This document shows positions 4,759 through 19,257 of a stretch of 19,257 bases of DNA, in pieces. Position 1 is the first letter of the stretch. Each line of letters opens with the position of its first letter. The position numbers and the translations under genes are program-made. Location of the stretch: NCBI GenBank assembly GCA_021107375.1, contig JAIOSY010000128.1, positions 1 to 19,257 on the forward strand, written 5' to 3'. This DNA comes from Sulfurimonas sp. GTDB taxonomy: Bacteria; Campylobacterota; Campylobacteria; Campylobacterales; Sulfurimonadaceae. Under the pieces are notes generated by a model. The model made no database searches and was not told where the DNA came from. It saw nothing but the letters and a program-made list of their open reading frames with translations.

Positions 4759-4794
4759 TTGGCATGTGGGAATTAAAAATCTCCACATGTGCCA
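4759..4794 (-). terminator. Inverted pair of the CCACATGCCA motif after pnp, candidate terminator
   Basis: TTGGCATGTGG (4759-4769) and CCACATGTGCCAA (4783-4795) face each other nine bases after the pnp stop codon. On the minus strand they fold into an 11-bp stem (ATGTGG/CCACAT plus TTGGC/GCCAA) with a two-base bulge. No clean T run follows, so it may act as a weak terminator or a 3'-end stabiliser. Paired uptake sequences serve as terminators in Neisseria and Haemophilus. Confidence 0.5.
4760..4769 (-). repeat. CCACATGCCA motif copy 1 (intergenic, after pnp)
   Basis: Exact 10-mer on the minus strand; its partner at 4783-4794 is the same word with TG inserted (CCACATGTGCCA). Confidence 0.85.
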
Positions 4795-4803
4795 AAAAGA
4801 TAT

Positions 4804-6972
4804 TTATACACGACCTAAAGAGATTTTGTTACCTTTGAATTCTAAAATTTCAACTGTAATTTTTTCACCCTCACTTAAAACATCAGAAACTTTTTCTACT
4901 CTTTTATCTGAAATTTTAGAGATATGAAGTAATCCTTCTGTACCATCTGGAAGCTCAATAAATGCTCCAAAATCAACTATTTTCTTAACTGTTCCCTCGT
5001 GTTTATCACCAACTTCATATTTAATTTTAGCTACTTTTGGAGTATTTACAATCCCTTCTATATGACCTCTTGCTCCAGCTACACCATCTTTACTTTTACC
5101 AGTTATTTTAACTTTTCCTTCTTTTTTGTCAATATCTATAGCTACTTCAAATTTTTCTATCATTTCACGGATAGTTTTACCAGCCTGACCTATAACTTCA
5201 CCTATAAAACTAGGATCTATATGAAAAAAGTCTGTACTTGGTAAAACACCATCATTAAACTCTATTTTAGACTCAGCCTCAAGCATAATATCTATAATAT
5301 GACTTCTACCCTCTTTAGCTTGGTAAAGTGCCTCTTTTAAAACATCTAATGAAATTCCACCAAGTTTTATATCCATCTGCATTGCAGTGATACCATCTTT
5401 TGAACCAGTTACTTTAAAATCCATATCCCCATCATGATCTTCAAGACCCATAATATCTGAAAGAATTGCATAGTTGTCACCATCACTCACCATACCCATA
5501 GCAATTCCAGCCACAGTATCACTAGTATCAATATCAGCAGCACGAAGTGCCATATAACCACCACAAACAGTAGCCATAGAAGATGAACCGTTTGACTCTA
5601 AAATCTCAGAAACTAAACGAACCGTTTGCCCATCTAAATCAACAACAGGTGCTAAAGCTCTTTTTGCAAGATTTCCATGTCCTAACTCTCTTCTTTTTGT
5701 TCCCATAACCGGAGATGCTTCACCAACTGAAAAACCTGGAAAGTTGTAGTGAACCATAAAGTTTTCATTTTGAGTTCCACTGTCTGTTAAAGATTCAAAC
5801 ATCTGTGCATCTTTTGGTCCACCCATCGTAAGAACCACTAAAGCTTGTGTTTGACCACGAGTAAATAGACATGACGAGTGAGCATTCGGAAGTACATTTG
5901 TACTTATTGATATAGGTCTAACCTCTGTTAAAGCTCTTCCATCTGCACGGACTTTTTCATTTAAAATTTGAGAACGAACCTGCTCTTTTTTTACTTTTTC
6001 TATCGCATCTTTAAGTTCAACTTCTTCCCAATCAGTTTTCTCTATAATAATTCTTTTTCTAAGTTTTCTTAATGCAGTTGAACGCTCAGATTTTGCCATC
6101 TGATTCATTGCAGATGCAATGTCTGGCATGTGGTTATCTCTTACATAAACAACCATCTCTTCATTTGTGGTATGTGCTTTTAAGTCTATCTCAGTAGTAG
6201 GTTTTTTACAATTCTCAAAAGCTTCTTCATATTTGCTGTTTGTATCAAAAAGAACAGCTTGAGTTTTCTCAAATACCTCTATAAGCTCATCTTCACCCAT
6301 AGCATTTGATACATGAGAACTCATTACAGCTGTTCCCATAGTTGGGTCTAAAAGAGGGTCAACTATCATCTCATTTACTTCAACTTTTTCACCACCAAAA
6401 GAACGCATCTCTATCATTAGTAAATCATTTTTAGTTCCTGATAAATATAAATCTAGTGTAGAATCTTTAAGTTGTGAAAGAGTTGGATTTATAACTATCT
6501 CACCATCAACTTTTGCAGTACGAACGGCAGAAACTGAAGTATTAATATCTATATCTGAAGTATAAAGTGCAGCAGAAGCAGCATTTAAAGCTAGTACTTG
6601 TAAATCAGACTCTGCATCAGCAGAAAAAACCATAATTGTTATTTGAGTTGGATGCCCAAAACCTTTTGGAAAAAGTGGACGAAGTGAACGGTCAACTATA
6701 CGAGAAGTTAAAGTTTCAAAATCACTTGGTTTAGTTTCTCTTTTAAAGAAACCTCCTGGGATTTTACCAGCTGCATATGTTTTTTCAATATACTGAACTG
6801 TTAAAGGTAAAAAATCATCCTTTACAATCTCTGTTTCATCAATTACAACAGTTGCTAAGATTACAGATTTCCCTGATTTTATCCATGCACTACCATTAGC
6901 CTGCTTTGCTACATCACCAAACGAATAACTCTCTTCTCTATTTTCTAACTCTAAACTTACATCATATTTCAT
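4804..6972 (-). CDS. pnp: Polyribonucleotide nucleotidyltransferase (PNPase)
   Basis: Phosphorolytic 3'-5' exoribonuclease, a main RNA-decay enzyme. The 722 residues show the full domain order: first RNase PH domain (about 1-140) with GGFFKRE at 73-79; the helical domain; second RNase PH domain (about 305-540) with FTRGQTQAL and the catalytic Asp-bearing KDGITAMQMDIK; a KH domain with the IGQAGKTIREM loop; and an S1 domain (GAFIELPDGTEGLLHIS) ending right at ISLGRV, so the C-terminal tail is very short. The start ATG overlaps the stop of the upstream phosphoribosyltransferase-like gene (ATGA); the ribosome-binding site GAGGAA lies in that gene's last codons. Last gene of the purD-pnp operon. 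Confidence 0.97.
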   Translation of the reverse strand: MKYDVSLELENREESYSFGDVAKQANGSAWIKSGKSVILATVVIDETEIVKDDFLPLTVQYIEKTYAAGKIPGGFFKRETKPSDFETLTSRIVDRSLRPLFPKGFGHPTQITIMVFSADAESDLQVLALNAASAALYTSDIDINTSVSAVRTAKVDGEIVINPTLSQLKDSTLDLYLSGTKNDLLMIEMRSFGGEKVEVNEMIVDPLLDPTMGTAVMSSHVSNAMGEDELIEVFEKTQAVLFDTNSKYEEAFENCKKPTTEIDLKAHTTNEEMVVYVRDNHMPDIASAMNQMAKSERSTALRKLRKRIIIEKTDWEEVELKDAIEKVKKEQVRSQILNEKVRADGRALTEVRPISISTNVLPNAHSSCLFTRGQTQALVVLTMGGPKDAQMFESLTDSGTQNENFMVHYNFPGFSVGEASPVMGTKRRELGHGNLAKRALAPVVDLDGQTVRLVSEILESNGSSSMATVCGGYMALRAADIDTSDTVAGIAMGMVSDGDNYAILSDIMGLEDHDGDMDFKVTGSKDGITAMQMDIKLGGISLDVLKEALYQAKEGRSHIIDIMLEAESKIEFNDGVLPSTDFFHIDPSFIGEVIGQAGKTIREMIEKFEVAIDIDKKEGKVKITGKSKDGVAGARGHIEGIVNTPKVAKIKYEVGDKHEGTVKKIVDFGAFIELPDGTEGLLHISKISDKRVEKVSDVLSEGEKITVEILEFKGNKISLGRV
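6124..6133 (-). repeat. CCACATGCCA motif copy 2 (inside pnp)
   Basis: Exact 10-mer in the coding orientation, read as His-Met-Pro within DNHMPDIA of PNPase. Confidence 0.85.
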
Positions 6973-7625
6973 TTTATTTCCTCTAATAATTTTTCTATTG
7001 TCTCTTCTTCTACTTTTGGTAACTCTTCATAATATAATGATGTTTCAACATAATCATCTATGTCATGTAAAAAAAACACATCATCTGCGAATGGTTCTAA
7101 TAATTCTAAAACATCACTTGGAATTACAGGGACAGCTATATAAACAGCTTTTGGTTTTTGAGCCAAAATAGTTTTTAAAGCTGTCATAAACTTCAATCCC
7201 GTTTCACTACCTTCATCAACAACTAAAACAACCTCATTTTTCATTGATGAAAAATGTCGTCCTTTTCTATATTGGTATATATAACTTAAAATTTTTTCTT
7301 CATGTTTTCGACTAGCTTCACCATAGATATAATCATACTTAATATCAAAAGCAGACACCAAATCTTCATTTATAACTATCTCTTCACTCTCACTAACACG
7401 AGCAACCTCACATTCATCATTATTTGGAGTCATAATTGCTTCTGAGAATAAAAAATCAATTTTATTTAAATACTTACCCCTAATATATGAACTTAATTCA
7501 AGACCACCACTTGAAACAGAAATTACTTTCCAAGATTCATCTTTAAATCTTTGCATAGGTATAACGTCACAAAGTTTAATAGCAGCATCTTTTCTATTTT
7601 TTAGTATATGCTTATATTTATTCAT
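6969..7625 (-). CDS. Phosphoribosyltransferase-like protein
   Basis: 218 residues. The segment EVVLVVDEGSETGLKF (131-146) matches the PRPP-binding signature of type I phosphoribosyltransferases (hydrophobic strand, two acidic residues, G-x-x-TG). It is followed by a second strand, KAVYIAVPVIPSD, as in the Pfam Pribosyltran fold. The substrate cannot be told from sequence; the N-terminal hood region (about 30-100) is not one I recognise. The C-terminus is acidic (EEETIEKLLEEIK). The gene is squeezed between lptD (two bases upstream) and pnp (ATGA overlap), so it is co-translated with RNA decay and LPS export genes. A nucleotide or nucleobase salvage role is possible but unproven; a catalytically inactive regulatory member is also possible. 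Confidence 0.75.
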   Translation of the reverse strand: MNKYKHILKNRKDAAIKLCDVIPMQRFKDESWKVISVSSGGLELSSYIRGKYLNKIDFLFSEAIMTPNNDECEVARVSESEEIVINEDLVSAFDIKYDYIYGEASRKHEEKILSYIYQYRKGRHFSSMKNEVVLVVDEGSETGLKFMTALKTILAQKPKAVYIAVPVIPSDVLELLEPFADDVFFLHDIDDYVETSLYYEELPKVEEETIEKLLEEIK

Positions 7626-7627
7626 AA

Positions 7628-9844
7628 TTAATCATTATCATCTTCTGGAAGTTTAAATGCGAAAAATGGTTCACCACCTGATTGCATAAATGGTTTGAGT
7701 GCTAATGTAAAATAAATATATTTTTCATAATTATTAGTTATTCCATCTTCACCAAGTTCTGGTCTATTATTTTCAGCATAAGTAATCCCAAAATCCCAAC
7801 ATCGTTTACTATACAAGAAACCTAACTCTGCTCTTTTTTTAATTTCTAACTCTATATCATAATCATATGCAGCATGATATGAGTAGTGACTATCATAAGT
7901 ATATCTTACAGTAGCTGTTACATAATTTGTATAAGGAGTATATGCAGCTAATGTAGCTGTAGCTTCTCTAGAATCCAAAAATGTATCCTTATATAAATGA
8001 GATAAAGCAATATTAAAACCATAACCATCATAAGATAATCTAGTATAAATTTTTGAAAACTTATTTTCATCATAATTATAAAAGATATTATTATATACAT
8101 TTATGCTATCTGTTACACTATAATCAACCTCATTTTCTAAATCACCCATTACTGTATCTTCATTAAATAATATTTGTTGAGCTATTCTATGATAAAGTAT
8201 CTGTTTTCCGGCAGCATCATATATGTACTGAGTAAAATCAAATTTAAGTTCCTCTTGAGTTTCTGTTATATTGTAAAATTCACATCTATCATTATTAGCA
8301 TTTAATGGGTTCGCACAAAAATCTTCATTATATTCATAAAATCCATTTGTAGTTTCAGCTCCATCAAAATGGTAACTAGTACCAAATGATATTACATGTG
8401 AAAAATCTGTATATGCCTTCGTTAATTGAGTTGATACACTAAGAATATTATCAAATTTACCTATGTATCCATCTTCATATTCAGCTAATGTATTCTCATT
8501 TTGACCACTAAACTTTGAGTGTTGTGCATATAAATTTGTTTTAAAAGATATATCTAAATATTCATCAAATAATGTAGTATGTAATGACACTGGTACATTT
8601 AAATTTGTTTGAATAACTTTTGACCCAACTTTTCTATAAAAATTTTGACTTTGTATATCTATATTATAAGTCAAATGTTGATCTAGTAATGTTTCTATAT
8701 AATGGTGATAATGAAGTGTAGGTATATTTTGTAATGTTTTATCATTATTAAGTTCAGGTGCTTCAATATCATTTTCATTTAAATTTTGATAATATTTAAA
8801 ATATGCACCAAAATAATCAGTATCTGTATTATAAAACATATTTATTCTAGAGATCATTTGAGTTGCAGTAGATTTATTTATAGTGTCATTACTTACAAGA
8901 TTTATATAATCAACATCATTCATATAGCCAATATCAGCATAAATACCAGATTGACCATCTAAGTTTAAACCAAACCATTGATTTATAAAGTCACTATTTT
9001 CATACTTAAAATTATAACCATAATGAGTCTCATTTTTTAATTTATTTTCTACGAAATAATCATCATTTTCTTTAAAATAACCTGTAGTAAATGAGCCCTC
9101 TGAAACTTTTGAGTCAATAAATCTAAAAGTAGAATAGATACCCTTTCCACGATTAGTTCTAATCTGAGGGTTAAACTCCAAATCCCACCAATTTTGTTCG
9201 GCGATATAAATAGGTTGTTGATAATAGAAGCCTTCATCTCCTGAATAACCAAACGAAGGTCTTAACAAACCTGTTCTTCTCGTTTTATCAAGTGAATGAC
9301 CAAACCATGGTGTATAAAGAATCGGTATATCATAAAAATAAAGTCTTGCATTATATAAGTCTAGCCACTTATCATCTGTGTTATATTCAGATGAACTGAA
9401 TTCCATTTGCCATAATGGATTTTCTGGTTCGCAACCACTTACTACACCAGAAGAAATTTTTAACTCTTTATCTTTTGCATCTCCTCTATCAGCACTTATC
9501 CAAACTTTAGAATCCTCATCTAACATATAAAATGGCTGAAAACTTCTCTCTTTATTTTTGATATTTAGTTTTGCATAATTACCCAGTACTTTATATGAAG
9601 AGCCCTGATTTGCTCTAATATTATGAAACAGTTCTAAATCACCACTTGTTTTATCATAAATAGCTCGTGATGCAGTTAAATAATAATCTTTATAAACAAC
9701 AGCCACACCACCTGAAGCATGTACTATCTCTTTACTAGAGTTCATTTTTGTTGCAAATATTTCTACTTTATCATTTTGGGTTTCAATCTCATTTGAATAA
9801 AGAACACCCGTTATAGTTAGGATTAAAAATAATAACTTATACAT
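7628..9844 (-). CDS. lptD: LPS assembly outer-membrane protein LptD (OstA/Imp)
   Basis: LptD is the outer-membrane barrel that inserts lipopolysaccharide into the outer leaflet. From ATG 9844 the product is 738 residues: signal peptide MYKLLFLILTITGVLYS, an OstA-type periplasmic beta-jellyroll (about 25-130; VEIFATKMNSSKEIVHASGG start), then a barrel rich in alternating aromatic strands (FYYQQPIYIA, WWDLEFNPQIRTNRG). One Cys lies after the jellyroll (GCEPENPLW) and one near the C-terminus (KRCWDFGITY), with two more in a mid-barrel loop; these could form the inter-domain disulfides known for LptD. An earlier in-frame ATG (9874) exists, but the signal peptide starts at 9844, which also gives a short overlap (ATGTATAA) with the upstream RDD gene. 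No clear ribosome-binding site is visible, so coupling is likely. Confidence 0.93.
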   Translation of the reverse strand: MYKLLFLILTITGVLYSNEIETQNDKVEIFATKMNSSKEIVHASGGVAVVYKDYYLTASRAIYDKTSGDLELFHNIRANQGSSYKVLGNYAKLNIKNKERSFQPFYMLDEDSKVWISADRGDAKDKELKISSGVVSGCEPENPLWQMEFSSSEYNTDDKWLDLYNARLYFYDIPILYTPWFGHSLDKTRRTGLLRPSFGYSGDEGFYYQQPIYIAEQNWWDLEFNPQIRTNRGKGIYSTFRFIDSKVSEGSFTTGYFKENDDYFVENKLKNETHYGYNFKYENSDFINQWFGLNLDGQSGIYADIGYMNDVDYINLVSNDTINKSTATQMISRINMFYNTDTDYFGAYFKYYQNLNENDIEAPELNNDKTLQNIPTLHYHHYIETLLDQHLTYNIDIQSQNFYRKVGSKVIQTNLNVPVSLHTTLFDEYLDISFKTNLYAQHSKFSGQNENTLAEYEDGYIGKFDNILSVSTQLTKAYTDFSHVISFGTSYHFDGAETTNGFYEYNEDFCANPLNANNDRCEFYNITETQEELKFDFTQYIYDAAGKQILYHRIAQQILFNEDTVMGDLENEVDYSVTDSINVYNNIFYNYDENKFSKIYTRLSYDGYGFNIALSHLYKDTFLDSREATATLAAYTPYTNYVTATVRYTYDSHYSYHAAYDYDIELEIKKRAELGFLYSKRCWDFGITYAENNRPELGEDGITNNYEKYIYFTLALKPFMQSGGEPFFAFKLPEDDND

Positions 9845-10286
9845 TTGTAACCAATGTTTTTGCTGTTTTATCATGCCAAGTTTGACGCGATGGATCTAAC
9901 ATACCCCATAAAAAACCAAGATAAAAAAGCATCTCACTTATTACTCTAAAAACTGCACGATTAAATGAAGCAATTATGTTTGGATTTTGCAAAGTTCTTA
10001 TCTCTATTACTCTAATTTTCATAATAATTTTTCCTATACTAGCCCCGTACTGAAGTACAAAGAAAGTTTGATAAACAATTTTTAATGCCATATATTCTAA
10101 AACAAAAGTATTAGTAAGATTTATAATCTCTTCTGTGTTAGTCGCTGAGGCAAAAGAATCCCAAAAAGCAATAATAAATAAAAAAGACAACAACATCTCA
10201 TCTATAAAAAATGCTATTGCTCTTTTTTTTGTATCTGCTAAAGTTATACCTTCACGATGAAGTATATTTTGAATCTCTTCATTCAA
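9837..10286 (-). CDS. RDD family membrane protein
   Basis: 149 residues with three to four hydrophobic helices (about 24-44, 62-85, 109-130). The family signature starts with KKRAIAFFIDE (20-30), where the usual R..DD pattern reads R..DE. It continues with YGASIGKIIMKIRVI and ends with the typical TWHDKTAKTLV. The function of RDD proteins is mostly unknown; some have been linked to ion transport. It sits between purD (nine bases upstream) and lptD (eight-base overlap), an arrangement that suggests an envelope-related housekeeping role, which is inference. A GGAAAA element lies about 12 bases before the ATG. Confidence 0.88.
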   Translation of the reverse strand: MNEEIQNILHREGITLADTKKRAIAFFIDEMLLSFLFIIAFWDSFASATNTEEIINLTNTFVLEYMALKIVYQTFFVLQYGASIGKIIMKIRVIEIRTLQNPNIIASFNRAVFRVISEMLFYLGFLWGMLDPSRQTWHDKTAKTLVTNV

Positions 10287-10295
10287 ACTATTTTC

Positions 10296-11561
10296 CTATA
10301 GAGCTTGATAAGCTATATCTGTTCTGATTTTTTTACCAACAAAATGCACTTGTCCACATCTTAAATACGCTCTATTTCTAGCTTCTTTAATAGTATCACC
10401 TACACCAACACAAACTAAAACTCTACCACCATCAGCATATAAAACACCATCTTGCATACTTACACCAGCAAAAGAGATGTGAGTATTTTCTTCAATCTCA
10501 GCATGTTTCACATCATCTAAAATAATTTCAGCGGGAGTTGAACTTGAATAAGGATAGTTTCCACTAGCCATAACTACACCAACTGCGAACTGTTTTGAAA
10601 ATTCTACTTTGATTTCACTCAGTCTATTTGTTGAGGCTTTTAAAAACATATCTGAAACAGATGATGTCATTAGTGGCATTAAAATCTCACACTCTGGATC
10701 TCCAAAACGAACATTAAACTCTAATGTAATTGGCTCACCATTAACAACCATAATTCCGATAAATAAGACACCCTCAAACGGAGCATTTTCTTTTTTCATA
10801 CCATCTAGGGTTGGAGCGATTACTCTATCTCTAACTTTTTGATATAACTCTTCATCTACAAGTGGAGTTGGGGCATAAGCACCCATCCCACCAGTGTTTG
10901 GCCCCTCATCATTGTTTAAAAGTCTTTTATGATCTTGTGCAGCTGGTAGCAAGATATAGTCATCACCATCACAAACTGCAAACATTGAAAGTTCATAACC
11001 ATCTAAAAACTCTTCAACGATAACTTTTAGCCCTGCATCACCAAAACTCTTTCCACTTAACATCTCGCTAATTGCAATTTTTGCTTCATCATGGTTTTGT
11101 GCAATAATCACACCTTTACCACCACAAAGTCCATCAGCTTTTACAACGATAGGAGCAGTTAGAGTCATAGTAAATTTAAAAGCATCTTCAATAGAAGCAG
11201 TTTCAATATATCTTGCAGTTGGGATATTATACTTTGCTAAAAAGTTTTTCATGTAAACTTTTGAACCCTCAAGTTGAGCAGCCTCTTTGCTTGGTCCAAA
11301 GATTGTTAAACCTTTTTCTTTAAAAATATCTACAACACCATCAACTAAAGGTGCTTCTGGTCCAACTATAGTAAGTTCTATCTTATTATCAATTGCAAAC
11401 TGTGCTAACTCATCATAATCTTTAATATTTAGGTTAGTTCCTAGATTGTTTGTAGCACCATTTCCCGGCTGAAAAAAAAGTTCGTGTTCTTCTTGCTCAT
11501 TTTTGATTGCTCTTGCGATAGAATACTCTCTACCACCACTACCTAAAATTAAAATCTTCAT
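10296..11561 (-). CDS. purD: Phosphoribosylamine-glycine ligase (GAR synthetase)
   Basis: Second step of de novo purine synthesis: joins glycine to phosphoribosylamine using ATP. The 421 residues show the N-domain ([16 protein letters not shown]; the common GGREH reads GGREY here), [10 protein letters not shown], then the ATP-grasp domain with [14 protein letters not shown], the [24 protein letters not shown] signature, and [10 protein letters not shown] carrying the metal ligands. I choose ATG 11561 because GGAG lies six bases upstream; an ATG four codons earlier overlaps that site. First gene of the purD-RDD-lptD-PRT-pnp run, preceded by a structured RNA and a hairpin holding the CCACATGCCA motif. 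Confidence 0.97.
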
Positions 11562-11581
11562 CCACATCTCCATAAAATTTT

Positions 11582-11630
11582 AAAACTATTTAATCCACAT
11601 GCCAAAAAAGTATATGCAATAAATAGTTTT
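11582..11630. repeat. 11-bp inverted repeat with the CCACATGCCA motif in its loop
   Basis: AAAACTATTTA (11582-11592) and TAAATAGTTTT (11620-11630) are perfect complements flanking a 27-base loop. The loop holds an exact motif copy (11595-11604) and a run of six A. It lies between the structured RNA and the purD ribosome-binding site, so it could be a purD leader hairpin or part of the RNA's 3' end. Confidence 0.6.
11595..11604 (+). repeat. CCACATGCCA motif copy 3 (intergenic, before purD)
   Basis: Exact 10-mer on the plus strand, in the loop of an inverted repeat. Confidence 0.85.
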
Positions 11631-11637
11631 GTGATTA

Positions 11638-11840
11638 AATAGCCCGAAAAGCCGTCTCGCCATTGGCTTGGTTCTAAAAGCCGAATTTAGGTGAAGAGAG
11701 AGCAATCTATCGGCGACAATTTCTCGGCTGAAACTAATCAAACCTCAAATGAAATCATCGACACACAAAAACTCTACTAGTTCACGATTTGAAAATGTAG
11801 AACCCTCATATTTGCGTTGACACGAACTTCTCAGACTATT
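11638..11840 (-). ncRNA. ssrS: 6S RNA candidate (purD-RNA position)
   Basis: A 203-base stretch, visibly richer in G+C than neighbouring spacers and without an ORF, lies between hemD and purD. The two ends pair over 14 bp including four G-U pairs (11840-11827 with 11651-11638). An inner 7-bp perfect stem (GGTTCTA 11804-11798 with TAGAACC 11676-11670) closes the long apical arm. Between the two stems is a large asymmetric bubble whose 3' side carries a small hairpin GCC-AAT-GGC (11667-11659). Closing stem, central bubble with a 3'-side hairpin, and long apical arm are the 6S RNA plan, which mimics an open promoter and sequesters sigma70 RNA polymerase. From memory, a conserved structured RNA upstream of purD in Epsilonproteobacteria (purD RNA) was later assigned to 6S. 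Confidence 0.75.
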
Positions 11841-11841
11841 A

Positions 11842-11852
11842 ATTATATTATA
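11842..11852 (-). promoter_or_regulatory. -10 elements of the structured-RNA promoter
   Basis: Two overlapping TATAAT hexamers on the minus strand (11852-11847 and 11847-11842). The first places the start about seven bases on, at 11840, exactly the first base of the closing stem of the RNA. Confidence 0.7.
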
Positions 11853-11881
11853 CAAAATTGATACTTGATTTTTCTTTGAAA

Positions 11882-12511
11882 TTATAAAGTTTTTGCTATA
11901 TCTATACAACTATCTATACTAGTTTTTGAAGAAAGAATATATTTAACATTTTTAGGAAGTGCTTTTGCTGTAGTTTTTCCTATAACAATTACCTTGGCAT
12001 GTGGACTTATTGTATGATTTTGCAAAAAACAATTAACACTAGATGGTGAAGTGAAAATCAAAATAGCCTCATCTTCTACTTCCACATGCCAAATCTCTTT
12101 TGAACATCCACTCTCATAAACTATGATTTCATCAATATCATAACCATCTTTTTGGCAGATAGAGACAAAATCACTTGCTACAACTTTTGCTCTTAAATAT
12201 AACCATTTTTTAGATTTAGTGTACTCTTTTATTTTAGATACTAAATTATCCCCATAACCTCCACCAATATCTAAGACCTCTCCACCCATATCTTCATAAC
12301 TTTTTGCACTAGCGACAGAAACACATAAAGCAGGTTTTAAATCTGGATTTACATACTGTTTTAAAACCTCACTCGTTTGCTTAGAAGTGATAATAAAATA
12401 ATCATAGTTTGAAAAGTTTATTTCTGGTTTTAAGAATTTAATATCTAGTGAGTTTATACTCTTGGCATGTGGATGGGATGAGATTGAGAAAAGATAGATT
12501 TGTTTCTTCAT
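11882..12511 (-). CDS. hemD: Uroporphyrinogen-III synthase
   Basis: Cyclises hydroxymethylbilane to uroporphyrinogen III, the branch point to haem, sirohaem and cobalamin. HemD is poorly conserved, but the 209 residues show its usual landmarks: DYFIITSKQTSEVL (about 37-50), the Tyr-bearing IDEIIVYES (about 126-134), AILIFTSPSSVNCFL (about 147-161) and AKVIVIGKTTAKAL near the end. The length is slightly short for the family. The gene follows guaA by 15 bases; its ribosome-binding site GGGAG overlaps the guaA stop and can be locked in a hairpin (12512-12534). It contains three exact CCACATGCCA copies in 630 bp, read as PHA, WHV and PHA. Confidence 0.85.
   Translation of the reverse strand: MKKQIYLFSISSHPHAKSINSLDIKFLKPEINFSNYDYFIITSKQTSEVLKQYVNPDLKPALCVSVASAKSYEDMGGEVLDIGGGYGDNLVSKIKEYTKSKKWLYLRAKVVASDFVSICQKDGYDIDEIIVYESGCSKEIWHVEVEDEAILIFTSPSSVNCFLQNHTISPHAKVIVIGKTTAKALPKNVKYILSSKTSIDSCIDIAKTL
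11995..12004 (-). repeat. CCACATGCCA motif copy 4 (in hemD)
   Basis: Exact 10-mer in coding orientation, read as Pro-His-Ala in SPHAKV. Confidence 0.85.
12082..12091 (+). repeat. CCACATGCCA motif copy 5 (in hemD)
   Basis: Exact 10-mer antisense to the gene, read as Trp-His-Val in EIWHVEV; inverted relative to copy 4, 77 bases away. Confidence 0.85.
12463..12472 (-). repeat. CCACATGCCA motif copy 6 (in hemD)
   Basis: Exact 10-mer in coding orientation, read as Pro-His-Ala in SHPHAKS near the N-terminus. Confidence 0.85.
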
Positions 12512-12534
12512 GGGATAAGCTTTCGCTTACTCCC
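12512..12534 (-). promoter_or_regulatory. Hairpin masking the hemD ribosome-binding site, across the guaA stop
   Basis: On the minus strand GGGA-G-TAAGC pairs with GCTTA-TCCC: nine base pairs with one bulged G and a GAAA tetraloop. It contains the guaA stop codon and the only GGGAG before hemD, and ends at the hemD ATG. Ribosomes finishing guaA would open it, so translational coupling is likely. No T run follows, so it is not a terminator. Confidence 0.6.
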
Positions 12535-14065
12535 ACTCAATTGTTGCAGGTGGTTTAGATGAAATATCATAAACAACACGATTAATTCCATCAACTTCGT
12601 TGATAATTCTTCTACTTATTCTTTCTAGTAAATCATGTGGAAGATGTGCAAATGTTGCTGTCATTCCATCAACGGCTTCAACAACTCTTACACAAACAGT
12701 GTTATCATAAGTTCTGTTATCACCCATTACACCAACAGATTTTACATTTAGTAAAACTGCAAATGCTTGCCAAGTTTTAGCGTAGTATCCACTAGCTTTT
12801 AACTCATCAAGTAAAATAACATCAGCTTCTCTTAGAAGTGTTAAATCAGGTACATTAACATCACCCATAATACGAATCGCAAGTCCTGGACCAGGAAATG
12901 GATGACGGTTAATCATACCCTCTGGCAGACCTAACTCTAAACCAATTTTACGAACTTCATCTTTAAACAGTTCACGAAGTGGCTCGATTAACTCAAAGTC
13001 CATCCAATCTGGTAAACCCCCAACATTGTGATGAGATTTAATAACCTCAGATGGTCCATTTACAGAGATAGACTCGATAACATCGGGGTAAAGAGTACCT
13101 TGAGCAAGAAACTTAATCCCATCATGTTTTTTAGCCTCTTTTTCAAACTCTTCAATAAAAGTATGACCGATAATTTTTCTTTTCTCTTCTGGGTCTGAAA
13201 TACCTGCTAGTTTACCAAGAAAGTTATCAACAGCATCAACAGTGATAAGTGGAGTTTTCAAGTTGATTTTAAAAACCTCTTCAACTTGTTCTCTCTCACC
13301 TTTTCTTAAAAGTCCATTATCAACAAAAACTGGAATTAACTGATCTCCAATCGCTTCATAAAGCATAGCAGCAACAACAGAGCTATCAACCCCACCACTT
13401 AAACCACAAAGAACTTTACCAGTTCCCACTTTTTCACGGATGATTTTAATTTGCTCTTTAAGAAAATGCTCCATTTTCCATTTCTCAGTTACTCCACAAA
13501 TATTTTTTGCGAAGTTTCTAAGCATTAGATAACCCTCTTCTGAGTGTTGAACTTCTGGGTGAAATTGCATTGCATAAACTCTTTTTTCCTCATTTGCAAT
13601 AGCAGCATATGGAGAATTAGCTGAAGTTGCTATTGGAGAGAAACCATCAGGAAGAACATCAACTTTATCTGAGTGTGACATCCAAACTATGCGATTATCA
13701 TCACAATCTGCTAACAGTGGAGATTGTGTTTCTAGTTTTAACTCAGCTTTTCCATACTCATGATGAGATGAACGGATAACACTCCCACCAAAATCTACAG
13801 CAATTCTTTGCATACCATAACAAATTCCAAGAACTGGTATATCCATAGAGTAAACACCTTGATCTACTTCATAAGCATCTTCATTATAAACAGAAGATGG
13901 ACCACCACTAAGGATAAGACCTTTAGGATTTTTTGCTTTAATCTCATCTACAGAAGTATGATAAGGTAAAATCTCACAATAAATTTTATCTTCACGAAGA
14001 CGACGAGCTATAAGTTGAGTGTATTGAGAACCGAAATCTAAAACTATGATGCTAACATTTGTCAT
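12527..14065 (-). CDS. guaA: GMP synthase (glutamine-hydrolysing)
   Basis: Converts XMP to GMP using glutamine and ATP. From ATG 14065 the product is 512 residues. The class I amidotransferase domain (about 1-190) has the nucleophile Cys82 in GICYGMQ and the catalytic pair H169/E171 in QFHPEVQ. The ATP pyrophosphatase domain has the P-loop SGGVDSS at 223-229. The C-terminal dimerisation domain ends with [10 protein letters not shown], a family invariant. The longer frame reaching 14113 has no homology before [17 protein letters not shown] nine bases upstream of 14065 supports this start. hemD follows directly, a pairing of purine and tetrapyrrole genes without obvious pathway logic. Confidence 0.97.
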
Positions 14066-14167
14066 TTGAAATGCCTTTAAAAAAATAGGATAATTAATAT
14101 TGAAAGGATACACTAAATTAGATTAATTTTTGATTTGGAATTTAAAGGTTTAAAAGGAGAGCATACA

Positions 14168-14188
14168 TTCCCACGCAGAGCGTGGGAA
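14168..14188 (-). repeat. REP-like GC-rich hairpin after nhaD
   Basis: A 9-bp perfect stem TTCCCACGC / GCGTGGGAA (three-base loop), flanked on the minus strand by CTCG and TG. Its G+C stands out from the AT-rich spacer. The word GTTCCCACGCTCTGCGTGGGAA resembles a REP-type repeat I recall as scattered through many proteobacterial genomes, usually mobilised by RAYT transposases. It lies 15 bases after the nhaD stop and could also stabilise that transcript's 3' end; no T run follows. Confidence 0.6.
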
Positions 14189-14203
14189 CGAGTTTAAAAT
14201 AAG

Positions 14204-15583
14204 TTAGCGTTGAATATAAAGACCTAACATTTCATACTGAACATACCAAACAAGGACAGATACTACATAACCCACAAGGATAGCCCAAGAAAATTTCATA
14301 TGAGCACTAAAAGTATAAATACCTTTTAGTTTTCCCATTACACCAACACCAGCAGCAGAACCAAAAGAGATTAAACTACCACCAACACCAGCAGTTAGAG
14401 TAACTAACATCCACTGAGCTAAAGGTAAATCTGGACTTGCTTTAAGTACAGCAGACATAACTGGAACATTATCGATTAGAGCTGATAAGAAACCAACACC
14501 AACATTCACATAAGTTGGATCAAACATATCATAAAGTTTAACTGCGTGACCTAAGAAACCTGCAAAGTGTAAAGCACCAACAGCAGCTAAGATACCGAAG
14601 AAAAATAGTAGTGTGTCATTTTCAATTTTTGAAACAGATTTATAAATTTCAATATCATGATCATGATATTTTTTAAGAGTATATGCATAAAGTTGTAAAA
14701 GTGAAAGACCAAATAACATTCCCCACATCGGAGGTAAGTGCATTAGTTGTTTACCTAAAACAGCTGAAGCGATTGTAAATATACCTAAAAAGATGATAAC
14801 CTTACCACCATGGTGAATATGAACTGGCTCTGCATTCTCAACTTTCGCTGGAGTTCCCTCTGGAACAAAGCGAGAAAGAAGAAAACCTGTAATACCCCAA
14901 CCAAGGATAGAAGCAGGAAAAAGGAAAAGAAAGTCAACAAAAACACCCTTACCAGCTGACCATGCCATTAAAGTTGTGATATCACCAAACGGAGACCATG
15001 CACCACCAGCATTTGCTGCAACTACGATATTTATAGCCGCAGGAACTAAAAATGCCTTATTATCTCTTTCAATTGTAATTAAAACAGTTGAAAGTATAAG
15101 TGCCGTTGTTAAGTTATCTGCAACTGGAGAAAGGAAAAATGCGATAAAACCAGTTACCCAAAACAATTGTTTATAGTTATATCCAGCTTTTAATAACTTC
15201 TCTTTAAGTGCATCAAAAACATTTCTCTCAATAAGTGCTTCGATAAATGTCATCGCAACAAATAAGAAAAAGAAAATCTCTGCAATCTCTAAGATAAGGT
15301 GTGCAATTTCAGTATCAAATGCACCAAAATCTAAACCATTTACAGCATAATATCCACCAAGTAACATAAATAAAAATGTACCTGTAAATAAGGCTGGTTT
15401 AGCTTTATTTATATGGTATTTTTCCTCTGCAGCGATAAAATAATACCCAACCACAAATATAACTAACAACAACCAACCAAATGGTGTAGTTGCTAAATCA
15501 ACTGCATGACCTGCCTCATGAGCAGATGTAGTTGCAAATGCAGCTACACTTGTTACTCCAAGTAACGATAAAATCTTTAACAT
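14204..15583 (-). CDS. nhaD: NhaD-type sodium/proton antiporter
   Basis: Exports Na+ (or Li+) in exchange for protons across the inner membrane. The 459 residues are mostly hydrophobic, with about 12 helices and family landmarks: SPVADNLTTALI (about 152-163), NAGGAWSPFGDITT (about 190-203) and SALIDNVPVMSAVL in the second half, where the acidic and Asn residues fit ion-binding roles. A short His-rich hydrophilic loop (PVHIHHGG) and a second one (KKYHDHD) lie mid-protein. The N-terminal helix may be a signal-like segment. Its ATG overlaps the nadB stop (ATGTTAA) and is preceded by AGGAG six bases upstream. It fits a marine or saline lifestyle. Being last in an NAD-biosynthesis operon has no obvious pathway reason. 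Confidence 0.93.
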   Translation of the reverse strand: MLKILSLLGVTSVAAFATTSAHEAGHAVDLATTPFGWLLLVIFVVGYYFIAAEEKYHINKAKPALFTGTFLFMLLGGYYAVNGLDFGAFDTEIAHLILEIAEIFFFLFVAMTFIEALIERNVFDALKEKLLKAGYNYKQLFWVTGFIAFFLSPVADNLTTALILSTVLITIERDNKAFLVPAAINIVVAANAGGAWSPFGDITTLMAWSAGKGVFVDFLFLFPASILGWGITGFLLSRFVPEGTPAKVENAEPVHIHHGGKVIIFLGIFTIASAVLGKQLMHLPPMWGMLFGLSLLQLYAYTLKKYHDHDIEIYKSVSKIENDTLLFFFGILAAVGALHFAGFLGHAVKLYDMFDPTYVNVGVGFLSALIDNVPVMSAVLKASPDLPLAQWMLVTLTAGVGGSLISFGSAAGVGVMGKLKGIYTFSAHMKFSWAILVGYVVSVLVWYVQYEMLGLYIQR

Positions 15584-17028
15584 TCTTTCTCCTGTATAAT
15601 TGTGTGAACTCCAACAGATTTATCTCTAGCCAAAGCTGAAATAACAATCTCTCTTGCCGTAAGTAAACGAAATTTCAATAGTTTACCTACATTTTCTTGT
15701 AAAAGAGCATTAATTTTACTTAAAGCCTCATTTAATCCACTTTTTGTACGAACAATTGAGACATTTTCCCACATTATTTTACGAAGTAGATTTTTTTTAA
15801 CTTTATCAGCTTTTAAACTCATAACTTCATCACTAACTTCAAACTGGACAAACTCTTTGATATGTGGATTATTTAAAATATCATCAACTGCATTTTTTGC
15901 AAAAACTAAACCCTCTAAAAGTGAATTTGAAGCAAGACGATTGGCTCCGTGAACTTTAGTTGAAGCGACTTCACCAATAGCATAAAGATTTTTTACACTT
16001 GGTACTCTACCATTTAGGTCACTTTTTATTCCACCGATAGCATAATGAAAAGCTGGAGAAATAGGAACTCTTTGCGATGGAACATCATAACCCAAGTCTT
16101 GCAAATTTTTATAAATATTTGGAAATCTATTCATAAAATATTCATACTCAAAATTTGCCATACTAAGATAAATCTGCATCCCAGTTTTTTTAGAATAATC
16201 ATAAATAGATTTACTTACAATATCTCTTGAAGCAAGTTCCCCTCTCTTATCATAATCAAACAAAAATCTTTTTCCATTTTCATCTTCAATGGTAGCACCC
16301 TCACCTCTTAGTGCTTCAGTGAGTAACATTTTTTGAGCATTTTTAGAATCTACATAAACAGTTGGATGAAACTGCATCATCTCCATTCTCTCTAACTCTA
16401 TACCCTTCATCACACAAAGACCTTGCATATCAGCACTAATACACGGTGCATTCGTATGATACTCATAAAGTGAGCCAACTCCACCACTAGCAATTATCAC
16501 ATCTTTTGCATAGATATTTCTACTCTCTCTATGGTCAAGCACGGTAACACCATAACACTCACCATTTTTTATAAGTAAATCAACTACTCTTGTATTTGAA
16601 AGTTGGGCATGTGGATTGTTTTTTAGCAAAAAATGATGCATATATCTACCAGTAGCATCACCACCAGCATGTAAAATCCTCTCACAAGAGTGAGCAGCTT
16701 CTTTTGTATAAAGGAGATTTCCCGCCTTGTCTTTGTCAAATTCAAATCCACGTTCAATAATATCATCAATAACATCTCGTGAATTTTTACTCATCTCATT
16801 AACTGCTGCGTCACAACAAAGCCCATCACCTGCATTTAAAGTATCTTCTATATGCAAAGGAACATCTTTTTCATCTACTGCTAAAGCGACTCCACCTTGA
16901 GCATAAAAACTATTGCATTTAAAAGTTTCTCTTTTATTTATAACAAGAACTTTTTTATCTTTTGGCATGTGGATTGCAGCATAAAGCCCTGCAACTCCAG
17001 CTCCAATTATAATCACATCATAATGCAT
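15577..17028 (-). CDS. nadB: L-aspartate oxidase
   Basis: Flavoenzyme for the first step of de novo NAD synthesis: aspartate to iminoaspartate. The 483 residues contain the FAD-binding start DVIIIGAGVAGLYAA (4-18), NSFYAQGGVALAV (39-51), the substrate-site patterns MMQFHPT and LRGEGA, HYAIGGI, and the C-terminal FAD motif IGEVASTKVHGANRLASNSLLEGLVFA. The shorter-than-usual C-terminal region is the helical domain ending VGVHTIIQEKEC. Fumarate reductase or SdhA is excluded by length and by the aspartate-oxidase type NRLASNSLLEG. The start ATG overlaps the stop of the lipoprotein gene (TAATG). Two exact motif copies lie in it (PHA and HMP) and one decayed copy (15858-15867). Confidence 0.95.
   Translation of the reverse strand: MHYDVIIIGAGVAGLYAAIHMPKDKKVLVINKRETFKCNSFYAQGGVALAVDEKDVPLHIEDTLNAGDGLCCDAAVNEMSKNSRDVIDDIIERGFEFDKDKAGNLLYTKEAAHSCERILHAGGDATGRYMHHFLLKNNPHAQLSNTRVVDLLIKNGECYGVTVLDHRESRNIYAKDVIIASGGVGSLYEYHTNAPCISADMQGLCVMKGIELERMEMMQFHPTVYVDSKNAQKMLLTEALRGEGATIEDENGKRFLFDYDKRGELASRDIVSKSIYDYSKKTGMQIYLSMANFEYEYFMNRFPNIYKNLQDLGYDVPSQRVPISPAFHYAIGGIKSDLNGRVPSVKNLYAIGEVASTKVHGANRLASNSLLEGLVFAKNAVDDILNNPHIKEFVQFEVSDEVMSLKADKVKKNLLRKIMWENVSIVRTKSGLNEALSKINALLQENVGKLLKFRLLTAREIVISALARDKSVGVHTIIQEKEC
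16605..16614 (-). repeat. CCACATGCC motif copy 7 (in nadB)
   Basis: Nine of ten bases (CCACATGCCC on the minus strand), read as Pro-His-Ala in NPHAQL. Confidence 0.75.
16963..16972 (-). repeat. CCACATGCCA motif copy 8 (in nadB)
   Basis: Exact 10-mer in coding orientation, read as His-Met-Pro in AIHMPKD. Confidence 0.85.
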
Positions 17029-17210
17029 TAGTTCTCTTTGCTACTCTCAACATCTACTTTTTTTACTGTAAACTCAACATTTTCATCACTAGCTGGTGCA
17101 TCTTCTAAATAATAAGGAGGGGCTTTATATCCACATCCACTTAAACTTAATAAAAACACTGTTATAATTAGCATATGAAAAATGCTACTCAAATAATTAC
17201 TTCTCTTCAA
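17028..17210 (-). CDS. LptM-like small lipoprotein
   Basis: About 60 residues: a basic, hydrophobic signal ending in a lipobox LSGC, then GYKAPPYYLEDAP and a short acidic tail. The mature start CGYKAPPYY resembles the CGxKGPLYxP signature of LptM (formerly YifL), a lipoprotein that assists LptD maturation. The match is short, so the assignment is tentative; lptD itself lies 7 kb away. I prefer TTG 17210 as start: it has GAGG six bases upstream (17220-17217) and supplies Lys-Arg before the hydrophobic core. ATG 17174 has no ribosome-binding site and no positive charge. With the TTG start it overlaps the divergent DUF721 gene by 36 bases. First gene of the nadB-nhaD operon. Confidence 0.65.
   Translation of the reverse strand: MKRSNYLSSIFHMLIITVFLLSLSGCGYKAPPYYLEDAPASDENVEFTVKKVDVESSKEN
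17163..17168 (+). promoter_or_regulatory. -10 element of a probable leaderless dciA-uvrC promoter
   Basis: TATAAT six bases before ATG 17175, placing the transcription start on or next to the start codon. It lies inside the lptM-like coding region on the other strand. No good -35 is visible. Confidence 0.55.
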
Positions 17211-17618
17211 AATAAACCTCAATTTTCTAAACTTTCTAAATTTAAATGTATCCAAAGAATACAATCTATGTTTATGCCTACATTTACAAGATTTGTAAAA
17301 TTTGCATATATTCAAAATAATACACTATTTTTTGTATTAAATCATAATGCTGGTAAACAAGAGTTTAATAATAATGTACAAAATATTAAAAGTGCGTTAA
17401 ATTTTCACATGCCAAGTGAATGTAGTGAAACTTTAGTAGAAGATATTAAGGCTTTTGTAACTCATAGCCCTCAAAAAAAGAAAATAGAAAAAAAAGTGGT
17501 AAAACAATCTTATATAGAAAGAGCTTCTGGAAAGGTAGAAGTAAATATACACGATGAAAAACTTAACACACTTGTAAAAAGCATTCAAAATATTATAAAA
17601 GCTAAAAATGAATCTTAA
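17175..17618 (+). CDS. DUF721 / DciA-like protein
   Basis: 147 residues with the DUF721 pattern: N-terminal helices (about 1-30), [38 protein letters not shown] (about 39-76) matching the beta-beta-helix in which the chain usually ends with 'hxxxLxxxxxxIxxxLN', then a Lys-rich linker and a C-terminal helix. DciA members act as loaders or operators of the DnaB replicative helicase in most bacteria that lack DnaC. Alternatives in the same Pfam family cannot be excluded. The ATG has no ribosome-binding site, an in-frame TAG lies six bases upstream, and TATAAT is only six bases away, so translation from a leaderless mRNA is likely. Its 3' end overlaps uvrC by 11 bases. Confidence 0.7.
17405..17414 (+). 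repeat. CCACATGCCA motif copy 9 (in the DUF721 gene, one mismatch)
   Basis: TCACATGCCA, nine of ten bases, read as His-Met-Pro in FHMPSE. Confidence 0.7.
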
Positions 17619-19257
17619 AACAAAAATCCAACAACTTCCACATGCCGCAGGTATTTACCAATACTTTGATAAAGATGAAAAACTTCTTTATATAGGAAAA
17701 GCTAAAAATTTATCAAATAGGGTTAAAAGCTATTTTAACTTATCTCAAGATTTACAAGCAAAAACAAATCTTTCAAGCAGAATTACTAAAATGATAAAAC
17801 AAACTACTTCTATGCACTATATAGTGGTAAATTCAGAACATGATGCTCTTATTTTAGAAAATTCACTCATAAAGCAGTTAAACCCAAAGTATAATATTTT
17901 ACTTCGTGATGATAAAACATATCCATACATTTATGTAGATAATTCTCAAGAATATCCTAGATATGAGATAACCAGAAAAGTTATTAAAAGTTCAAATATT
18001 AACTACTTTGGTCCCTACTCTATTGGAGCAAGAGATATTTTAGATTCTATTTATGAACTTTGTAAACTTGTACAAAAAAAAGGCTCTCTAAAATCAAAAA
18101 AAATATGTCTTTATCATCAAATAGGAAAATGTTTAGCTCCTTGTGAACTAGATGTTCCACATGCCAAATATAAAAAAGAGCTTGATTTAGCTTTAAAATT
18201 TATTCAAAATAAAAAATTACTTATATCTAAACTTGAAGAAAAAATGTTGTTTTATGCTGAAGCTATGAGGTTTGAAGAGGCTGGAGAGTTAAGAGATAGG
18301 ATAGAAAAAATCTCTCGTTCAGAGATTAAAAGTGAGATTGATTTTGCTAATGGAGAGAATTATGATATTTTTGCCGTATCTAATAGTCAAAGTCGTGCTG
18401 TTGTTGTAAGAATATTTATGAGAGATGGGAAAATCATCTCATCTTCACATGATTTTATACAACTAAATGAGGGTTATGATGAGGACGAAATTTATCAAAG
18501 AGTTTTACTTGATTTTTATGGTGAACAAAAACCTCCAATCATCGCTCCAATACTTTTGGCATGTGACTTCAAAGAGATGGAAATTATCCAGAAGCATTTA
18601 AGTGTAGTTTTTGAGAAAAAAGCTCAACTTATTTATCCTAAACGAGGTGATAAAAAACACCTTATAGAGTTAGCACTTTTAAATGCAAAAGAGCTTTTAA
18701 AGAAAGATATTTCAACTGACTCTAAAAAGCTTTTAAGTGAGCTAAAAGAGTTGCTATCGCTAGAGAGAATTCCAACTAGAGTTGAAATCTTTGATAACTC
18801 CCACATGGCTGGAGTTGCAACAGTTGGAGCAATGGTAGTTTATGATAACTCTAAGTTTGATAAAAAAAGCTATAGAACTTACCATCTTGAAGCAAAAGAC
18901 GAGTATGCTCAGATGAGAGAAACGCTAACAAGAAGAGTTGAGAGTTTTTCCAAAGTTTCTCCACCAGATTTATGGATAATTGATGGTGGGACTACACTTT
19001 TAAAATTAGCAAAAGATATTTTAGATTCATCTGCTGTTTTTATAGATGTTATCGCTATATCAAAAGAAAAAATTGATGCTAAATCTCATCGTGCCAAAGG
19101 TAAAGCAAATGATATTATTCATACAATTAATGAAAGTTTTAAACTCAAACCAAGCGATAAAAGACTTCAGTGGACACAAAATCTAAGAGATGAAGCTCAT
19201 AGATCTGCTATAACTTTTCATAAAAAAACAAAACTAAAGCTTGATAAAGAATCAAAA
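17608..19257 (+). CDS. uvrC: UvrABC excinuclease subunit C, 3' end missing
   Basis: Makes both incisions in nucleotide excision repair. 550 codons are present, open at the right edge; about 50 residues (the helix-hairpin-helix end) are missing. The GIY-YIG nuclease domain is at the N-terminus (GIY 15-17, YIG 28-30). Four cysteines follow the first domain with C-x14-C-x7-C-x3-C spacing (ending GKCLAPC), matching the iron-sulfur ligand set described for UvrC. Next come a UVR helix pair for UvrB binding ([23 protein letters not shown]) and the RNase H-like domain with [10 protein letters not shown] and LWIIDGG. The start ATG 17608 overlaps the DUF721 stop by 11 bases and lacks a clear ribosome-binding site, suggesting coupling. 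Three motif copies lie inside. Confidence 0.96.
17638..17647 (+). repeat. CCACATGCC motif copy 10 (in uvrC)
   Basis: CCACATGCCG, nine of ten bases, read as Pro-His-Ala in QLPHAAG, where other UvrC proteins vary. Confidence 0.75.
18157..18166 (+). repeat. CCACATGCCA motif copy 11 (in uvrC)
   Basis: Exact 10-mer in coding orientation, read as Pro-His-Ala in DVPHAKY. Confidence 0.85.
18557..18566 (-). repeat. CCACATGCCA motif copy 12 (in uvrC, one mismatch)
   Basis: TCACATGCCA on the minus strand, antisense to the gene, read as Leu-Ala-Cys in LLACDF. Confidence 0.7.

Follow-up and report, generated by a model that had tools for sequence, protein, structure and literature searches.

The uptake sequences of the Neisseriaceae (DUS) are words of about 10–12 bases that occur in hundreds to thousands of copies, in genes as well as in spacers, and sections of three reports further describe inverted pairs that act as terminators, conservation above that of the surroundings and dialects that follow phylogeny (PMC3630211, PMC2397512, PMC12616744). 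Inverted copies of the Pasteurellaceae uptake sequence (USS) are placed in terminators in part of another report (PMC1852404), and the cyanobacterial HIP1 is reportedly a short word of high copy number that is low in some relatives (PMC4390886). The Neisseriaceae and Pasteurellaceae are named in a section of PMC12616744 as the only families known to have uptake sequences. Our literature search, which covered titles and the beginnings of abstracts among the matches listed and took in no preprints and few subscription journals, found no uptake-type word described in Campylobacterota and no paper joining Sulfurimonas with 'uptake sequence'. Uptake sequences are also reported by two surveys of terminators, the covered portions of which do not mention the phylum names searched (PMC13020248, PMC1852404).

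We analysed a stretch of 19,257 nucleotides, called the window here, which forms contig 151 of a Sulfurimonas MAG of 1.66 Mb that is 71.5% complete. An initial annotation of the window had listed a dispersed 10-mer, CCACATGCCA, and proposed it as a DNA-uptake-type sequence. All twelve sites that it listed are present, eight of them exact and four with one mismatch, as is the copy with an insertion (Table 1). By comparison, 0.52 sites are expected, and none of 200 dinucleotide shuffles reaches twelve or more. The genes that bear the word encode PNPase, HemD, NadB, UvrC and a 147-residue product, and the inverted pair at 4760 and 4783 has a predicted fold of -15.9 kcal/mol. At the places of the twelve sites, TCCACATGCC, a refined core of the word, is found six times in L003, seven times in L005 and three times in G275, and not once in the non-carriers L001, L008, L010, L012 and L022, although some sites did not align in all of the genomes. 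Separately, the spacer at 14141–14200 holds CCCACGCAGAGCGTGGGAACGAG, a possible dispersed repeat, and a similar word, CGTGGGAACG, recurs in G329.

Table 1. Copies of the word in the window and the state of the same place in relatives
Form	Position	Strand	Context	Same site in relatives
Exact word	4760..4769	-	Intergenic, just 3′ of PNPase gene; left arm of inverted pair	
Insertion copy CCACATGTGCC	4783..4793	+	Right arm of inverted pair, terminator-like hairpin	
Exact word	6124..6133	-	In PNPase gene (4804-6972, minus)	TCCACATGCC in L003 and L005; absent in non-carriers L001, L008
Exact word	11595..11604	+	Spacer beside 425-aa ORF (10296-11573, minus) that reads as purD	Word not shared by L003, L005
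Exact word	11995..12004	-	In hemD (11882-12511, minus)	Word not shared by L003, L005, G275
Exact word	12082..12091	+	In hemD, antisense	TCCACATGCC in L003, L005, G275
Exact word	12463..12472	-	In hemD	TCCACATGCC in L003 and L005; not in G275
CCACATGCCC, differs at base ten, which is loosely kept	16605..16614	-	In nadB (15577-17028, minus)	TCCACATGCC in L003 and L005; TCCACATGCT in G275
Exact word	16963..16972	-	In nadB	Word not shared by L003, L005, G275
TCACATGCCA, one mismatch	17405..17414	+	In 147-aa ORF without a name (17175-17618)	TCCACATGCC in L003, L005, G275
CCACATGCCG	17638..17647	+	Early in uvrC (from 17608 to the end of the window)	TCCACATGCC in L005; not in L003, G275
Exact word	18157..18166	+	In uvrC	TCCACATGCC in L003, L005, G275; absent in non-carriers L001, L008, L010, L012, L022
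TCACATGCCA, one mismatch	18557..18566	-	In uvrC, antisense	Word not shared by L003, L005, G275

The word extends far beyond this locus, and none of the outcomes that the initial annotation had named as refuting was seen: counts lie far above expectation, copies occur outside the locus and strand polarity is absent along 220 kb of the carrier G275. The MAG of the window (G000) carries 384 exact copies of CCACATGCCA, 200 forward and 184 reverse, and the reversed word, counted as a control, is found on neither strand (0/0). The flanks are also kept, as the initial annotation had suggested (T before, AA or AG after). Specifically, among 93 copies in carriers, the 5′ neighbour of CCACATGCC is T in 95%, and the two bases on its 3′ side are A in 74% and A in 66%, which gives a carrier consensus of T-CCACATGCC-A/G-A, with likeness fading within roughly three bases on either side. 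The better core is therefore TCCACATGCC, which is not a palindrome and from which kept bases reach out asymmetrically (T before, CC(A/G) after). Dialects are evident as well: eight of nine CCACATGCC copies in the L002 MAG end in CCG, an altered last C is tolerated in G275 and an altered first T or C in G000, and G489 has a mixed word ending together with the forms TCCACATGTA and TCCACATGCT.

The initial annotation was right that a dispersed word exists, but it had not seen that the word is restricted to part of one genus or that other species carry words of their own. In a sample of 398 genomes of the order, more than ten copies of CCACATGCCA occur in five genomes, all of them Sulfurimonas (384 in G000, 770 in G275, 541 in G371, 972 in G389 and 63 in G329), and no other genus carries it. 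We call a genome a TCCACATGCC carrier when it contains 150 or more hits to CCACATGCCA with one mismatch allowed, a cut-off of our own choosing that is reached by 20 of 135 Sulfurimonas genomes. The mean is 65 hits in the 115 others, and 27 for the reversed control across the full set of 135. Among the 40 genomes behind named loci, TCCACATGCC is counted 1302 times in that of the LacPavin_0818_WC45_MAG_34_15 locus, 1298 times in that of S03.Bin072 and 721 times in that of Modern_marine_glass mb.119; beyond these three, four genomes have 71–141 copies and 33 have 11 or fewer. A nadB tree of 54 rows places 11 of 18 carriers on one branch (96/93) and the remaining seven in several places off it, with deep forks poorly resolved. 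The word label changes three times on this tree vs 7.7 times when shuffled, a count that set the 18 carriers against nine rows bearing other words and did not include the 27 rows without a label.

At orthologous sites, conservation of the word was set against that of 9-mers lying 15–60 bases away. This was done in 25 comparisons, and the pooled figures represent six comparisons between active carriers and six with low-count lineages, with the other 13 left out. Low-count denotes few exact cores: the genomes of L004, L007 and L038, which were equated with G442, G494 and G329 by contig matching, have 141, 140 and 71 copies of TCCACATGCC, and the assignment of G503, G502 and G401 rests on samples of 135, 65 and 15 kb. 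The lower-count carriers G489 and G435 lie outside the test. Between active carriers, 35 of 59 sites are exact and four have one to three mismatches, vs matches of 4–22% for the flanking 9-mers. In the low-count lineages (G442, G503, G494, G329, G502 and G401), four of 69 sites are exact and 39 have one to three mismatches, vs 5–19% for the flanks. Thus, sites are mostly either exact or gone between active carriers and are decayed in six low-count relatives.

The comparisons outside the pool kept the following sites: G389 to G417, 10/10; G275 to G417, 5/8; G409 to G275, 6/11; G000 to G389, 5/9; G275 to G371, 1/2; G275 to G438, 1/2; G389 to G442, 0/10; G389 to G503, 1/6; G275 to G442, 0/8; G409 to G329, 0/5; G442 to G417, 1/2; G503 to G417, 1/1; and G000 to G275, which is the weakest comparison between active carriers, 4/16. 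Because the compared pairs share sites, the P values of this test are indicative only. The scarcity of half-decayed sites among active carriers resembles a report on Neisseria, a section of which states that many DUS of recent origin differ too much from their homologues for point mutation to have produced them (PMC2397512).

The word is dispersed, balanced between strands and independent of reading frame; it forms inverted pairs, is better conserved than its flanks, is distributed by clade with dialects and has decayed in relatives. All of this favours the reading first proposed for the window, and we consider it very probable that TCCACATGCC(A) is a DNA-uptake-type sequence maintained by sequence-specific uptake. 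Both this maintaining process and the type of receptor are our inference; sites would likewise be conserved above their flanks if some other sequence-specific process maintained them. If this model is correct, DNA that bears the word would be preferred by a surface DNA receptor of the competence machine, and this receptor is probably one of the minor pilins in an MSHA-like type IV pilus. Such DNA would enter through ComEC and then recombine with the chromosome, and the preferential re-import of word-bearing alleles would let the word build up and persist in the shared genome. Lineages that lose uptake, or in which its specificity is lost or shifts, would see their copies decay by ordinary mutation.

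A check for competence genes, which had been recommended in the initial annotation, gives a picture compatible with this model. A match to PF03772 (ComEC) is present in 18 of the 20 carriers, truncated in one of them, and a prepilin motif in 19 of 20; the genus as a whole has PF03772 in 123 of 135 genomes. The window's genome, at only 71.5% completeness, has no ComEC match, and its sister G434 has one. G442 is 100% complete and has one-ninth as many exact copies as G417 and G389, to which it is closely related (the genomes were matched through contig coordinates). Its comEC (L298:2355-3119) lacks the N-terminal part, and what is kept corresponds to residues 166–416 of the 420-residue G389 protein. 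The gene that abuts comEC in G389, G494 and G275, which reads as dnaB, was not found within the 6 kb examined in G442. Low-count G503, which is 99% complete, has no ComEC match. However, the low-count G494, G329, G502 and G401 have ComEC matches of normal length, and loss of comEC therefore does not explain all of the decay, so that the link between word decay and competence loss is suggestive only.

G275 carries an operon of minor pilins that we read as MSHA-like, with a DUF6701 protein (L082:14515-19956), and a pilin that we read as GspH/FimT-like (L160:17103-17795). Co-occurrence did not single out a receptor candidate, with prepilin genes found in carriers and non-carriers alike; since pilin genes are not specific to carriers, we claim no receptor. 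The type II secretion cluster was also considered for the role of uptake machine. GspD is present in all 12 TCCACATGCC carriers of at least 90% completeness vs 42 of 73 others. At the same completeness, however, GspD occurs in only seven of 16 YTACATGTAR carriers and one of five CTCACGCA carriers, and the secretin of the cluster scores as a true GspD; the candidate was dropped on both counts. A comparison of type II pseudopilins in 12 carriers and nine other genomes revealed no sharp difference.

The other words of the genus bear on the nature of the maintaining process. Of the 135 Sulfurimonas genomes, 23 have 99 or more YTACATGTAR sites, with a maximum of 551 (control 2–10 there), and G125, G335, G400 and G403 are among them. 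The word is also iterated at the loci L074, L079 and L028. It is a true palindrome and takes the form TTTACATGTAAA in Sulfurospirillum. Genomes of family f20, which we infer to contain Sulfurospirillum, have up to 1496 sites of TTACATGTAA, and sampled genomes belonging neither to f20 nor to the family of the window have 11 or fewer. CTCACGCA gives 621–962 strand-balanced hits in seven of the 135 genomes (G016, G076, G063, G419, G454, G456 and G469; control 22–39 there), which are without the other two counted words. AAACGCA, probably a fourth word, is dense in the Sulfurimonas MAGs L012, L020 and L026, at four to six times its synonymous-shuffle expectation.

With cut-offs that are again our own (at least 99 sites for YTACATGTAR and at least 600 hits for CTCACGCA, for which the next highest genome, G463, has 99), the words of Sulfurimonas are almost mutually exclusive. 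The three counted words, TCCACATGCC, YTACATGTAR and CTCACGCA, overlap in one genome only, G502, which also has the hybrid TCACATGTAA (permutation P = 0.011, phylogeny ignored). Sites of the other words are conserved too: 8 of 12 and 8 of 10 YTACATGTAR sites are exact in two Sulfurospirillum loci (flanks 10–17%), and six of 10 to 11 of 24 AAACGCA sites are exact (flanks 17–28%). In G400 and G405, YTACATGTAR stands weakly above the flanks (four of seven and four of six vs 41% and 35%). TAGATGC, found in G404, G488 and G317, was not counted as a further word because its excess over synonymous shuffles is 2–3.5-fold and mostly in two frames; the longer TAGATGCT in G488 reaches fivefold. Repeats of another appearance were also seen. 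G503 (loci L088 and L129-L132) has a hairpin repeat interspersed in 10 copies over 120 kb, which have the block CAACCCCCTAAAG in common and look REP-type, and in G329 (L090, L145 and L146) the repeated GTCATTGCGA and CGAAGCAATC are REP-like.

A different explanation is that TCCACATGCC is a modification or palindrome-maintenance site, kept by a DNA-binding or methylating enzyme centred on CATG. HIP1 is such a palindrome, linked in cyanobacteria to methyltransferases, and the core of the Sulfurimonas word does contain the palindromic CATG, with the full palindrome YTACATGTAR in high number in relatives. However, TCCACATGCC itself is non-palindromic with asymmetrically conserved bases, CTCACGCA and AAACGCA are without CATG, and the close inverted pairs in spacers are not predicted by such an enzyme. 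We regard this explanation as unlikely.

The orientation and placement of copies address two further explanations. Copies had been described in the window in both orientations, in genes and spacers and in several frames, and all of this recurs in G275, where 220 kb hold 44 plus and 41 minus copies and, over 412 kb, ORFs contain 101 copies of CCACATGCC, with each of the six frames used, and a further 34 copies fall outside ORFs vs 8.5 expected, a density between genes five times that within them. Nine close inverted pairs occur in these 412 kb, eight of them in or touching spacers, and inverted pairs fold as terminator-like hairpins. Similarly, a 123-kb sample of G000 has 37 copies in ORFs (five frames), six outside (2.2 expected) and one inverted pair. 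Hundreds of scattered copies could represent a chromosome-organisation signal such as Chi, KOPS, matS or a nucleoid-binding site, and strong polarity had been named as the mark of such a role. Yet no polarity is seen in the 220 kb of G275; instead, the strand alternates above chance (54 runs vs 43.4 expected, sd 4.6), to which close inverted pairs contribute. Totals are nearly even in the counted carriers, the most uneven being the fragmented G483 (370/459, one mismatch allowed), and most species of the genus lack the word. The largest copy-free gap in the 220 kb, of 17.5 kb, coincides with ORFs that look from their sequences to be tuf, ribosomal protein genes and rpoB/rpoC, and not with a replication domain. 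A role in chromosome organisation thus appears very unlikely.

A mobile micro-repeat or terminator element spread by transposition could account for the inverted pairs that form terminator-like hairpins, but it is hard to credit on the remaining evidence. Likeness fades about three bases from CCACATGCC on each side, most of the sampled copies in G275 (101/135) lie inside ORFs, and non-carriers usually show, at the aligned place, a stretch of equal length with other bases and not an empty site. Finally, the idea that the word is due to chance, or is a side effect of codon usage or of the encoded proteins, has next to no standing: one frame (PHAK) is favoured among coding copies, but the word is read in all six frames in G275 and in five in the sample of G000, coding CCACATGCC stands at 10–15 times its synonymous-shuffle expectation (96 vs 9.5 in G275, 31 vs 2.1 in G000 and 6 vs 0.42 in the window), expectation is exceeded 6 and 10 times by the shifted words TCCACATGC (G275) and CACATGCCA (G000), and the word is dense outside genes. 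Chance, codon usage, polarity and a mobile repeat were rejected on these shuffles, strand runs, frames and non-carrier alignments.

Sequence-specific uptake, our preferred reading, can be carried further, to a proposal that we hold at even chances. Campylobacterota may have evolved sequence-specific uptake independently, and the word of Sulfurimonas may have been replaced several times. In that case TCCACATGCC, YTACATGTAR (also in Sulfurospirillum), CTCACGCA and AAACGCA would be alternative self-recognition words, each genome-wide, that split the genus into transformation communities, with G502 (TCACATGTAA) and G489 (TCCACATGTA, TCCACATGCT) caught between words. If true, this would be a third independent case, in another phylum, and so a replicate for asking why such words evolve; it would also bear on how a receptor changes in step with a thousand copies spread over the genome. 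Active, decayed, hybrid and different words among close relatives make these questions testable within one genus of free-living sulfur oxidisers.

Campylobacter jejuni, of the same phylum, takes up methylated RAATTY DNA and accepts self DNA in a sequence-dependent manner, but its signal is a short methylated site and not a rare, specially accumulated word. Unlike Chi and KOPS, TCCACATGCC has no strand skew along 220 kb of G275, and unlike HIP1 it is non-palindromic; YTACATGTAR is nearer to HIP1 in form. Judged by its sequence, the word belongs to neither known uptake family. It is unrelated to the Pasteurellaceae USS (AAGTGCGGT), lacking the GCGG core and showing no AT tracts above background in the 12 flanking bases of its logo, whereas its genomic behaviour is the same. 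It is likewise unrelated to DUS, with no CTG on either strand (the CTG core is required in DUS), and differs further in its phylum, in its fewer copies and in that the words of its congeners share no clear core. In length, dispersal, inverted pairs, conservation and clade-wise dialects, however, it is like the Neisseriaceae DUS (GCCGTCTGAA, receptor ComP), and the best reading of these sequences is that TCCACATGCC is convergent with the DUS of Neisseria and the USS of Pasteurellaceae.
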